Below are positions 17,997 to 60,179 of a DNA stretch of 64,000 bases, one piece after another. The number at the start of each line of letters is the position of its first letter. The stretch's first letter is position 1. Both the position numbers and the translations under genes were made by a program. Source of the DNA: Gemmatimonadales bacterium (GTDB lineage Bacteria > Gemmatimonadota > Gemmatimonadetes > Gemmatimonadales > GWC2-71-9). The stretch spans positions 1 to 64,000 of the forward strand of contig JAHBVU010000007.1 in NCBI GenBank assembly GCA_019637315.1, given 5' to 3'. The notes beneath the pieces were generated by a model, which was given only the letters and a program-made list of their open reading frames with translations, did not search any database and was not told the origin of the DNA.

Positions 17997-18886
17997 ACCT
18001 CCTCGGCCTGCGCCGGTGCGCGGCTGACCAGAATTCCCGCAATCACCAGCGCCGCCCCGACTCCCTGGAGCGGCGTAGGTCGCTCGCCGAGCAGCAGCCA
18101 GGCCACCAGGGCAGCAAACACCGGTGTGACGCAGTTGTACAGGGCCGTTCGGCTGCCGCCCAGCGCCTTGAGGCCGCGGGTCCACAGCACCATGGCGACG
18201 AGCGAGGAAAAAACCGCAGAATAGATCAGGGCAATCCAAACGATCGGTGAGAGGGCTGGCAGATCGACCGCCACGAGCCCGGGCGTTGCCGCGAGCACCA
18301 GCCCCGGGGTTCCTCCGACATGCGTGATCGCCGCGACCTCGAGTGAACTGCGGGACATCGCCACCGTTCGAACCCCGACCAGGAACGAGGCCCAGCAGAT
18401 CACGGCTCCAATGGTGAGCGCATCGCCCCGGAGTGTGTCGACCGTAAAGTGCGCACCTTGCGCTGCCACCACCAGCACGACGCCCAGGGTTCCCAGCCCG
18501 ATCCCGGCCCAGACCCGCGCCTCCGGCCGTTCCCTGCCGCTCGCGATCCCGAACAGCGCGACGACCACCGGCAGGGTCGCAAAGATCAGGGCGCTGTTGG
18601 TGGCCGTGGTGTGCCGCAGACCGTAGAGAAAGAACCCCTGATTGAAGGTATGGCCAACGATGCCCCAGGCCAGCAAGCGCCACAACACCGACCGAGGGAT
18701 TCGGCCTGGGCGCTCGACACTCCAGAACACGGCCACCAGCAGCGCGCTGCTCAGCACGAACCGCATCGCCGCAAAGGGCAAAGGACCCAGGTGCCCCAGA
18801 GCCAGCTTGGAGATGCTGAAGTTGGTGCCCCAGATCAGGGAGACGCCCAGCATGCCAGCGTCGTAGCGTGAGAAACCGCGACCCAT
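17993..18886 (-). CDS. EamA (DMT) family transporter, copy 2
   Basis: Drug/metabolite-type transporter with ten predicted membrane helices in two EamA repeats (297 residues), typical length for this family of amino-acid, metabolite or drug exporters. The substrate cannot be told from sequence. It follows a paralogous EamA gene at 18888 with one base between them; the shared segments GTNFSISKLAL versus GANFSANKYAL and TALYNCVTPVFAALVAW versus TALYNCVVPVVAALVAW point to a tandem duplication. The two may act as separate carriers or as a heterodimer. Confidence 0.88.
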   Translation of the reverse strand: MGRGFSRYDAGMLGVSLIWGTNFSISKLALGHLGPLPFAAMRFVLSSALLVAVFWSVERPGRIPRSVLWRLLAWGIVGHTFNQGFFLYGLRHTTATNSALIFATLPVVVALFGIASGRERPEARVWAGIGLGTLGVVLVVAAQGAHFTVDTLRGDALTIGAVICWASFLVGVRTVAMSRSSLEVAAITHVGGTPGLVLAATPGLVAVDLPALSPIVWIALIYSAVFSSLVAMVLWTRGLKALGGSRTALYNCVTPVFAALVAWLLLGERPTPLQGVGAALVIAGILVSRAPAQAEEV

Positions 18887-18887
18887 G

Positions 18888-19805
18888 CTAGCGGCCGTGC
18901 GGTGCGCGCACAGCGGGTCGTACCATGCCCTGACTCAAGAAGACCCCCGCAAACACCAGGGCCGCGCCGAGCCCCTGAACCGGCAGGGGCCGTTCGCCAA
19001 GCACGAGCCAGGCAACCAGCGCGGCAACGACTGGCACGACGCAGTTGTACAGCGCGGTCCGATTTCCGCCGATGCGCTGGACGGCGACGCTCCAGATGGC
19101 GTAGGCCACCACGATAGCGAGGACGGCGGAGTACAGCAGCGCACCCCAGGTCCACGCGCCCAGCTGCAGCCACTCGGTTCGGACCAACTCAGGCCAGGCG
19201 AGGAGCACCAGGAGCGGTGTTCCGCCCGTGGTGGTGAGCAATACCACGCGCAAGGGATGGACCCCCCGACCGACCTGGCGAACACCCACGGTAAAGATCG
19301 ACCAGCAGAGACAGGCGAGCAGGGCCAGCAGATCGCCACGGAGGGTGGCGGAGGAGAAGTCGAGGCCGCGCGCGGCGATGACCATGACCACGCCAACGGT
19401 CGCGACCAGGATGCCAACCCAGAGCCGCGGGCTGGCGCGCTCGACGCGGAAGACTGTTCCCAACACCGCGACGGAAACCGGCATGGCTCCCAGAATGAGT
19501 GCCGCGTTGGTCGCGGTGGTTGAAACCAGCCCGGTCATCAGGGTTGCCTGATAGGCGGTGTTGCCGATCAGGCCAAGACCGGCGAGCAACCACGCCGTGC
19601 GCCCGGGCACGCCCTCACCAGGCCTCAAGACGGCAACCACCGTCCAGAGGAGGCCGCTCGCGATCAGGAATCGAACGGCCGAAAAGGCGAGCGGGGGCAC
19701 TGAGACGAGTGCGTACTTGTTCGCGCTGAAGTTGGCGCCCCAGATCAGGGCGACGAGCAGCATTCCGAGATCGGACTTGGAGAGTGGCGGCGCTGAGGAG
19801 GCCAT
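18888..19805 (-). CDS. EamA (DMT) family transporter, copy 1
   Basis: Ten-helix EamA transporter, paralogue of the next gene downstream. I chose the ATG at 19805; a TTG at 19817 in frame would add four residues, and neither has a strong ribosome binding site. Two EamA domains are visible (about 10-145 and 155-290). It is divergent from lepA with about 90 bp between. The substrate is unknown. Heterodimeric paired DMT proteins exist in the small-multidrug-resistance branch; for ten-helix EamA proteins pairing is less usual, so simple duplication is the safer reading. Confidence 0.87.
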   Translation of the reverse strand: MASSAPPLSKSDLGMLLVALIWGANFSANKYALVSVPPLAFSAVRFLIASGLLWTVVAVLRPGEGVPGRTAWLLAGLGLIGNTAYQATLMTGLVSTTATNAALILGAMPVSVAVLGTVFRVERASPRLWVGILVATVGVVMVIAARGLDFSSATLRGDLLALLACLCWSIFTVGVRQVGRGVHPLRVVLLTTTGGTPLLVLLAWPELVRTEWLQLGAWTWGALLYSAVLAIVVAYAIWSVAVQRIGGNRTALYNCVVPVVAALVAWLVLGERPLPVQGLGAALVFAGVFLSQGMVRPAVRAPHGR

Positions 19806-19884
19806 TGCGGCGTACAATCTAGCAGCCCCCCTGAGCCGCCGCCCGGATTCTCCGAGGCACGGGGGAACACGCTGGGCACCCGAC

Positions 19885-19890
19885 TATATT
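19885..19890 (+). promoter_or_regulatory. Candidate leaderless -10 element for lepA
   Basis: TATATT ends 7 nt before the lepA ATG at 19898, placing the expected transcription start on or next to the A of the start codon. No ribosome binding site precedes this ATG. This matches the arrangement of leaderless transcripts; no clear -35 box is seen. Confidence 0.5.
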
Positions 19891-19897
19891 CGGGCCC

Positions 19898-21703
<1,806 letters not shown>

Positions 21704-57897: not shown

Positions 57898-58935
57898 GTG
57901 CGAATCGCCGTAGTCTTCGACACCCCCTATACCGGGTGGACGGCCGAACGACATCGCAAGCAGATGCAGGACGAAATGGCCGGTACCGTCGACGTGCCTG
58001 ACGTGGAGGTCGAGTATCAGGTGACGGCGGCGCTGGAGGCCAACGGCCACGAGACGCTGATGATCGGGGTTTACGACGATCTGCGTGTCGTCCTGGACGC
58101 ATGCCTCGAGTGGAAGCCCGACCTCGTGGTCAATTGTGCCGAGGCGTTTCGCGATCCGCGGAACGACTATGTCTTCCCTGCGCTGCTCGATTCGATCGGG
58201 GTCCGCTATACCGGCTCGCCAGCACAGGGGCTCCTGGTCTCGCGAGACAAGGCGATGAGCAAGAAGGTGCTCGCCTACCACGGCATCAGGGTGCCGGGCT
58301 TCACCACGTTTCGCCTGGGAGAAACGGTGAGCGAAGCCCCGACCATGCCCTTTCCGCTGATCGTCAAGCCGCTCTCGTCGGATGCGTCGGTTGGGATTGC
58401 GCAGGCTTCCGTGGTCAACGACGTGGCCAGCCTGGCCGAGCGGGTGGGGTTTGTTCATCAGCGCTACCAGCAGCCGGCCATCGTCGAGGAGTTCGTGGCG
58501 GGTCGCGAGTTGTACGCCGGGGTGCTCGGCAACGGCCCAGGTCTCCAGGTGCTGCCGCTCACCGAGCTCGTGTTCGACAAGGAAATGAACGCGCCCGAAG
58601 AACGGATTGCGACGTCGTCCACCAAATGGGACGAGCCGTACCGACTCCGGCGGCGGATCCGTTATCAGTTTGCCAGGCCGGTGTCGGCAGCTGCGCGAGA
58701 GCAGATCGAATGGATTTGCCGCACCGCCTGCCGCGCATTGTGGCTCTGCGACTATGCCCGAATCGACGTTCGGCTCACCGACAACGACGAAGTCTGGGTG
58801 CTCGAGGCCAACGCGAACCCGTATATCTCGGAAGGGCACGAGTTTGCCAACTCCGCGGAGAAGATCGGCCTCGACTACCATCAGTTGATCGAGCGGATCG
58901 TCACCGACGCCATGGCCCGGTACGCCAATGCCTAG
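57898..58935 (+). CDS. ATP-grasp ligase (D-Ala-D-Ala ligase-like)
   Basis: A 345-residue ATP-grasp enzyme most similar in layout to D-alanine-D-alanine ligase: N-terminal RIAVVFDTPYTGW, DKAMSKKVLAYHGIRVPGF, nucleotide-site PLIVKPLSSDASVGI, VEEFVAGRELYAGVLGN, and metal-site WVLEANANPYIS near the C-terminus. True Ddl proteins have N-P-G in this last motif; here it is N-P-Y, so a different substrate is likely. The start is GTG at 57898. Its end overlaps the zinc-ribbon HELGH gene by 8 nt, and a 57-residue gene follows, hinting at a peptide- or cell-wall-modifying cassette. Confidence 0.82.
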   Translation: MRIAVVFDTPYTGWTAERHRKQMQDEMAGTVDVPDVEVEYQVTAALEANGHETLMIGVYDDLRVVLDACLEWKPDLVVNCAEAFRDPRNDYVFPALLDSIGVRYTGSPAQGLLVSRDKAMSKKVLAYHGIRVPGFTTFRLGETVSEAPTMPFPLIVKPLSSDASVGIAQASVVNDVASLAERVGFVHQRYQQPAIVEEFVAGRELYAGVLGNGPGLQVLPLTELVFDKEMNAPEERIATSSTKWDEPYRLRRRIRYQFARPVSAAAREQIEWICRTACRALWLCDYARIDVRLTDNDEVWVLEANANPYISEGHEFANSAEKIGLDYHQLIERIVTDAMARYANA

Positions 58936-59911
58936 GGTGCCGCCGGACGATCCGCGCTGTCGGTGCGGCTACCCGCTCAAGCGGTACTGGTGGTATTGCC
59001 CCGACTGCGGCCGATCGCAGCGCTGGCCGGAGATGAGCGAAATCACCGGCAAGCGCTGCCCCGAGTGCAGCTGGGCCGTTTCGCCCAAGTTCTCCTATTG
59101 CCCTTGGTGCGCATCCGACATCGCGGAATCCCGATCGTCGCCGGAACCGCTCAAAGCCCCGGCCGGCTTTCGCATGGACGCCCGCTGCGATGGGGGGTGC
59201 GGCGGCGGGGTGCAGTACCCGATGGCCTACTGCCCTTGGTGCGCCGCGGAACAGGAGTGGAACGAGGACAGCAAGTTCGAAGGCGACTGCGCCCACTGCG
59301 CGCGGGGGGTGGACGACTGGATGGATCACTGCCCTTGGTGCGGTGAGGATGCCACGGGCCGAGATCTGATTCCGCGCGCGCTGCTCCGGGTTCGCCGCCT
59401 GCTCAAAGTGTCCCGGGTACCGAGCTGGGGCTATCGGGTGCTGCTCCGACCCGGAGTGTCAGGGGTCGATCCGGCCTATCCCAAGATCGTCGAGATCGAG
59501 CAGAAGTATGTCTCGGGCCGTCGGCGTGACGAGATACCCTGGACGATGCTGGTGGGCCTGATCAGCCATGAGCTGGGCCACAGTTTCCTCTATCACCATT
59601 GGCATTGGACCCAGTCCGCCGCGTTTCGGCGCGTCTTTGGCGAGGCCAAGAAGGCCTATCGCGTCAACGACGATGCCTGGGTCGATTTTCAGCGGCGGCG
59701 GGTCGCCATCAATCCCGTCGATCACGTCAGCGGCTATGCCGCCCGGCACCCGCAGGAAGACTTCGCCGAGACGTTCCGGTACTATGTCACTCGGGGCGGC
59801 CGCCTGCGGGAGCTGTTTGCCGAACTGGGCCAGAAGCGCAAAGGGGTCCCGGTCTACGAGAAGTTCCTGGTGCTGCAGTCCTTGATCCGATCGGTCAACG
59901 CCTCGCGCTGA
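58928..59911 (+). CDS. Four-zinc-ribbon protein with HELGH metallopeptidase-like domain
   Basis: A 327-residue soluble protein. The first 140 residues contain four Cys4 ribbons: CRCG...CPDCG, CPEC...CPWCAS, CDGGCGG...CPWCAA and CAHC...CPWCGE. The C-terminal domain has a zincin helix ISHELGHSFLYHH (about 217-229) and a likely third ligand in HPQEDFAETFRYY (about 275-287). Zinc peptidase activity is a motif-based guess. It overlaps the ATP-grasp gene by 8 nt and precedes the 57-residue gene by 94 bp. I know no named family with this exact combination. Confidence 0.75.
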   Translation: MPRVPPDDPRCRCGYPLKRYWWYCPDCGRSQRWPEMSEITGKRCPECSWAVSPKFSYCPWCASDIAESRSSPEPLKAPAGFRMDARCDGGCGGGVQYPMAYCPWCAAEQEWNEDSKFEGDCAHCARGVDDWMDHCPWCGEDATGRDLIPRALLRVRRLLKVSRVPSWGYRVLLRPGVSGVDPAYPKIVEIEQKYVSGRRRDEIPWTMLVGLISHELGHSFLYHHWHWTQSAAFRRVFGEAKKAYRVNDDAWVDFQRRRVAINPVDHVSGYAARHPQEDFAETFRYYVTRGGRLRELFAELGQKRKGVPVYEKFLVLQSLIRSVNASR

Positions 59912-60005
59912 GGGGGGCTGCCGGCCCAGGCCCTTTCTCGCCGGGTGGCACCCCGTTACCATCCGGGGCGGAAGCTGCTGTCCAACGCGGAAACCGGGAG
60001 GTCAT

Positions 60006-60179
60006 GTGGGCAAGAAGGAAGACGCGATGATCGCGAAGCTGGTCAAAAAGGCCAACGCGAAAGTCGCTCCGCCGAAAGATCGTTCGTCGCAATACGATGA
60101 CACGCTTCGGGTCCGGCAGAACGACGAAAATTCCGAGACGAAGCAACTGTTCAAAGAGATGCGGCGCCGCGAGTTCTGA
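60006..60179 (+). CDS. 57-residue highly charged protein in ATP-grasp/HELGH cassette
   Basis: A small gene missed by length filters. GTG 60006 follows GGGAGG at 59996-60001. The protein begins MGKKEDAMIAKLVKKANAK and ends LFKEMRRREF; it is rich in Lys, Arg, Glu, Asp and Gln with a predicted helical first third. No Cys, signal peptide or Gly-Gly motif is seen. It could be a substrate, an adaptor or a stand-alone regulatory peptide. Its place after the ATP-grasp and HELGH genes makes it the prime candidate partner, but the link rests on proximity. Confidence 0.6.
   Translation: MGKKEDAMIAKLVKKANAKVAPPKDRSSQYDDTLRVRQNDENSETKQLFKEMRRREF

Follow-up and report, generated by a model that had tools for sequence, protein, structure and literature searches.

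A Ddl-like ATP-grasp ligase and a Peptidase_Mx metallopeptidase form a conserved gene pair in Gemmatimonadota and Myxococcota

The window analyzed here is a stretch of 64,000 nucleotides from a Gemmatimonadales bacterium (genome G000, contig C7; phylum Gemmatimonadota). We focused on three open reading frames of its forward strand, which code for a Ddl-like ATP-grasp ligase, hereafter type 1 (positions 57898..58935, GTG start, 345 aa), a zinc-ribbon metallopeptidase with a Peptidase_Mx core (58928..59911, ATG start, 327 aa), and a small protein (60006..60179, GTG start, 57 aa). A sequence-only reading had described them as a cassette, with 8 nt between the first two genes and 94 bp before the third. 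All three reading frames are present, and their coding status is backed by conservation, with related peptidase genes at 53 loci and the small protein encoded by 105 genomes out of 249. The ORF coordinates place the start of the small ORF 94 nt past the peptidase stop, as had been stated, but the 8 nt are an overlap of the ligase and peptidase reading frames (58928..58935, forward strand) and not a spacing. This arrangement probably reflects translational coupling of the two genes. Of 36 homologous pairs, 33 have a possible peptidase start between -20 and +5 nt relative to the stop codon of the ligase. The outer flanks of the pair differ from lineage to lineage. In one clade (L028:551-4975 and most of L020 to L050), the same-strand genes upstream of the pair encode a LOG/lysine-decarboxylase-like protein, a member of the deoxyhypusine-synthase family (PF01916, 2.8e-68 at L028), and an MFS-like transporter.

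The best Pfam family for the ligase was Dala_Dala_lig_C (PF07478, 1.7e-24), while the match to RimK (PF08443) was partial and reached 19 bits, below the cut-off of 21. Against TIGR01205 the protein scored 98 bits, compared to a cut-off of 246, and it fell far under all NCBI Ddl cut-offs; the true Ddl of the same genome, encoded on contig C1, scored 280 bits and thus exceeded the TIGR01205 cut-off. The AF2 model of the ligase had a pLDDT of 92, and the nearest solved folds were D-Ala-D-Ala ligases, matched over the whole length with TM-scores of 0.71 to 0.76 (query length). The residues of the ATP site are conserved (K118, K157, E197, E204, D290, E303, and N305), and alignment with the genome's own Ddl showed that both enzymes share the lysines that bind ATP, the E..GRE strand, Y-x-R-x-D-x-R, and E-x-N. 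In Ddl, the SAER, LHG..GEDG, KY, and PG(L/M)T..SLLP motifs are assigned to the two D-Ala pockets. The genome's own Ddl has all of them, whereas the window ligase lacks the SAER loop, LHG..GEDG, and PG(L/M)T..SLLP and carries KW at the KY position. Because the Ddl fold and the ATP site are kept and the Ddl substrate motifs are gone, sequence and model together indicate that the window ligase is a Ddl-fold enzyme with substrates other than those of Ddl. The sub-cut-off scores, the absent substrate motifs, and the separate true Ddl of this genome rule out an ordinary Ddl, in agreement with the earlier description of an ATP-grasp ligase with an altered Ddl motif. Genes annotated here as "D-alanine-D-alanine ligase" are thus evidently not cell-wall enzymes. 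The same genome also harbors two tandem Ddl-like ATP-grasp genes on contig C23 (positions 18118-19931; seen at L098, L110, and L111), with a short gene of acetyltransferase type and then one that by eye resembles lysine 2,3-aminomutase behind them, and similar tandem pairs recur in other Gemmatimonadota genomes.

The four zinc ribbons and the metallopeptidase-like HELGH core that had been noticed in the second protein both held up. Residues 11 to 138, approximately, contain eight cysteine knuckles with 16 cysteines, corresponding to four ribbons, and the knuckle cysteines are nearly all invariant among 32 homologues. The core, in the C-terminal half, harbors the motifs HELGH (214 to 218) and HPQEDFAE (274 to 281), of which H214, E215, H218, and E281 are invariant in the same set; HELGH is kept in all of the homologues but one, which has HELAH. 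Pfam searches returned Peptidase_Mx (PF15887, 5.4e-12, 46 bits, cut-off 27) and the DZR double zinc ribbon (3.9e-7). This protein is the sole Peptidase_Mx match in its genome, and the family was absent from all 14 control genomes. Structure prediction of the peptidase was only partly informative: the search pointed to a zincin-type fold, with weak similarity to zincins of the PPEP-1/lethal-factor type (best E = 0.02), but the model itself was mediocre (pLDDT 66). Because of this low confidence and the weak best match, we used the structure only for a general zincin assignment. No hydrophobic signal sequence was found at the N terminus, and the peptidase presumably acts in the cytosol.

To see how far the two genes occur together, we counted them in 249 Gemmatimonadota genomes. 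The zinc-ribbon peptidase was found in 38 and the ligase orthologue in 37, all 37 of which also carried the peptidase (Fisher p about 2e-43, a statistic that ignores shared ancestry). Moreover, 36 of the 38 peptidase genes lie directly downstream of the ligase gene on the same strand, and the ligase is likewise directly upstream at most of the 53 related peptidase loci of the GTDB collection. Both type-1 genes are also found together at three Myxococcota loci (L013, L025, and L049), but a sample of 189 genomes from that phylum yielded the pair just once. The trees of the two proteins are congruent, and their pairwise distances correlate within type 1 (r = 0.93) as well as within the type 2 described below (r = 0.90). 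Since both trees nest the Myxococcota loci inside the Gemmatimonadota sequences, the type-1 pair was transferred as a unit. These sequence comparisons support the view that the two genes belong together functionally and are conserved and inherited as a pair. Plasmid-borne copies were found for neither peptidase type. We dropped a role in anti-phage defense, there being no match in PADLOC-DB.

The pairing is not without exceptions. At six loci (L016, L018, L019, L021, L022, and L027), the peptidase gene has no adjacent ligase; it is flanked by fpg on one side and a GIY-YIG/UVR-motif gene on the other, and purD is found upstream. The 25 to 28% ligase match upstream of these peptidases proved to be purD itself, an unrelated ATP-grasp gene. 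Locus L017, with the order purD-fpg-ligase-peptidase, resembles this site, but with a ligase in place. Among the six genomes in which the ligase is not adjacent, three encode a window-type ligase elsewhere and three (G440, G442, and G444) have none. The one distant ligase whose full sequence was read (L099) clusters in the branch of the window ligase, apart from its own peptidase. Since G440, G442, and G444 have the peptidase and no type-1 ligase, the peptidase can also serve a purpose independent of the ligase.

A second version of the pair, here called type 2, came from ligases 38 to 45% identical to that of the window, which are common elsewhere in Gemmatimonadota. Their neighbor is a gene of about 340 codons that matches Peptidase_Mx and has no zinc ribbons. 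Searching with this peptidase gave 66 matches in 64 Gemmatimonadota genomes, and the ligase adjoins the peptidase at 61 of the 66 loci, either behind it on the same strand (52 loci) or convergently (9 loci). In Myxococcota, the phylum of G249, 24 of 189 genomes have the type-2 peptidase; when 20 of the loci were read, the ligase was directly downstream in 18 and two genes away in 1, and in the remaining one the contig ends before the place of the ligase. Between the two types, the ligases are about 39% and the peptidases about 23% identical, and both peptidases share HExxGH and HPxED(F/W)AETF. The type-2 pairing is ancient and independently linked; the same two partners in differing orders and orientations are hard to explain through inherited gene order alone. 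Peptidase_Mx, a "putative" family, thereby gains a consistent partner gene, and the conservation of the pair in two distinct forms across phyla makes one question applicable to many strains.

The type-2 pairing also has its exceptions, as four genomes have an intact type-2 ligase with no recognizable peptidase beside it. Given both ligase-only and peptidase-only genomes, neither partner is strictly obligate; they occur together usually but not always. The argument that an eraser is obligatory, drawn from type 1, where no ligase was found without the peptidase, fails for type 2 on account of these four genomes. At L096 (2099-3628), a DUF885 gene (PF05960) lies beside the type-2 ligase, and a gene similar to it by eye lies beside the type-2 peptidase at L146 (3827-4999). 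DUF885 is not an alternative partner of the ligase at L096, where a convergent Peptidase_Mx gene is present on the other side of the ligase, but it is possibly a third partner in the L096/L146 subgroup. Another ligase-peptidase neighborhood was seen at L103 (2728-4836), where a Ddl-like ATP-grasp gene has a divergent neighbor with a Peptidase_C39 match.

The third gene of the supposed cassette behaved differently. The small protein (57 to 58 aa, charged) is conserved in one copy in each of the 105 Gemmatimonadota genomes that have it, and the homologues read (among L061 to L089) share the C terminus F[KS][ED][MV][KR][KR][RK][ED]F; neither Pfam nor NCBIfam gave a match. Its gene adjoins the pair only in the window genome, its congener G040, and the GTDB loci L005 and L006. 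In G132 it is found 1.2 kb upstream of the ligase, and in G108, which belongs to the same genus, and almost everywhere else it is on a separate contig. Its contexts vary, and at L082, L085, and L088 the genes on its two sides resemble panB and panC, as judged by eye. Additionally, 35 genomes encode the small protein with neither pair and 38 with the second pair only, and the protein is missing from 6 of the 38 genomes with the zinc-ribbon peptidase. Across the phylum, the small protein and the pair are associated (Fisher p about 1e-8, again ignoring ancestry); the simplest explanation is that a single family is rich in both. The small protein is genuine and phylum-wide, but its gene, which adjoins the pair in only a few close relatives and is unlinked in most genomes, is an unrelated neighbor and not a member of the module. 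This distribution rules out the three-gene cassette and does not support the proposed ligase-peptidase-substrate set; the separation of the small gene from the pair in most relatives is an outcome that the sequence-only reading had itself named as refuting. One could still argue that the protein serves the pair as substrate within the window's genus, given that it is small and charged, has a strongly conserved C terminus as expected of a recognized tail, and adjoins the pair in a few genomes. We consider this very unlikely in view of its single-copy, phylum-wide occurrence, of the genomes in which it is present without either pair or absent despite the peptidase, and of its unlinked position even in the congener G108. 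We saw no conserved small ORF accompanying the pair, the small gene being unlinked and the flanks variable, in a survey that was systematic only for ORFs of at least 40 aa.

We therefore propose, with about even confidence, that ligase and peptidase constitute a two-gene module with a single peptide or protein as common substrate, the ligase most likely being the writer and the peptidase the eraser; the small protein is outside this module. The ligase would activate a carboxylate as an acyl phosphate at the expense of ATP and then join it to an amine; both of its substrate pockets appear to be rebuilt, so that the product would be other than D-Ala-D-Ala. The co-translated peptidase would work in the cytosol on the substrate of the ligase, where its most likely task would be to remove or trim whatever the latter has added. 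Because the type-2 peptidases manage without ribbons, the four zinc ribbons may be read as a recognition module for a protein or nucleoprotein substrate. We infer that both enzymes share one substrate, and our guess, by analogy, is that the peptidase opposes the ligase.

Alternatively, the peptidase could free a substrate from a cellular protein or peptide, to which the ligase would then add an amino acid or join another molecule, without any dedicated precursor gene. Such a forward pathway would fit the peptidase-first order, the commonest in type 2 (52 of 66), and the occurrence of both ligase-only and peptidase-only genomes. It would also have a parallel among graspetide-type ATP-grasp enzymes, of which branches 7 and 8 are tied to several peptidase families with no detectable precursor, the authors proposing that the peptidases supply the peptides (PMC8939145). 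Since no conserved transporter, precursor, or biosynthetic gene accompanies the pair and its flanks are lineage specific, we regard this pathway as possible but rather doubtful. The writer/eraser relation seems more likely than peptide supply because of the analogy with RimK-RimB and RloC-RloA; in Pseudomonas, loss of the RloC-RloA protease is rescued by loss of the ATP-grasp gene (PMC12239564).

The six loci with fpg and the GIY-YIG/UVR-motif gene, together with L017, could suggest that the peptidase is mainly a DNA-repair protease, acting for example on DNA-protein cross-links, with ribbons that bind nucleic acid and the ligase as an accessory. This is improbable, as the neighbors at most loci are unrelated to DNA repair, no SprT/Spartan family match was obtained up to E = 1, and the type-2 peptidases are equally linked to a ligase yet have no ribbons. 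A Van-like cell-wall system, in which the altered ligase would make D-Ala-D-X and the zinc peptidase would destroy D-Ala-D-Ala as VanA and VanX do, would account for the order in principle (a Ddl-like ligase, then a zinc peptidase) and for a Ddl-fold ligase present in addition to a true Ddl. We give it hardly any credence: the window ligase has lost the motifs of both D-Ala sites, every one of which the genome's own Ddl retains; the peptidase, with its four zinc ribbons, matches Peptidase_Mx and not VanX/VanY; and no plasmid copies were found.

If the writer/eraser reading is right, the pair could represent a reversible peptide- or protein-tagging system new to the literature, with a Ddl-derived writer, a Peptidase_Mx eraser, and at least two ancient subtypes in Gemmatimonadota and Myxococcota, one of them with a four-ribbon recognition module; we advance this only tentatively. 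No published account of a Ddl-like ligase paired with Peptidase_Mx turned up in the literature searched, which included few subscription papers. A 2009 survey of ATP-grasp amidoligases by Iyer and colleagues could mention the pair.

An ATP-grasp ligase encoded with a peptidase is a recurring means of modifying peptides and proteins, and few such pairs have a known substrate. RimK-RimB, which acts in RpsF glutamylation, and RloC-RloA resemble the window pair in that an ATP-grasp ligase is encoded with a peptidase of the same process. Unlike RimK, the window ligase belongs to the Ddl branch and scores under the RimK cut-off; its peptidase is a zincin with ribbons rather than a retropepsin-like aspartic protease of the RimB type, and the pair has no RimA- or RloB-like partner. 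The ligase shares its fold and ATP site with the Ddl and Van ligases, but every substrate-site motif is replaced, and unlike in VanA-VanX, there is no VanX/M15 D,D-dipeptidase, the peptidase matching only a Peptidase_Mx-type zincin and zinc ribbons. The HExxGH and HPxEDFAE core is also that of the TIGR04549 substrate-import-associated zinc metallohydrolase lipoproteins and of Peptidase_Mx, and weak sequence matches were obtained to the solved proteins 9urd (a TIGR04549-type lipoprotein) and 4l7a (uncharacterized). However, in contrast to these lipoproteins, the window peptidase has four N-terminal ribbons, no signal sequence, and an ATP-grasp partner instead of TonB-linked import genes. Similarly, graspetide branches 7 and 8 share the link of ATP-grasp genes to peptidases without a recognizable precursor, although their ligases are of the graspetide type and that of the window is Ddl-like. 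Overall, ligase-peptidase pairs as such are already known, and what appears to be new is the combination of a Ddl-like ligase with Peptidase_Mx.
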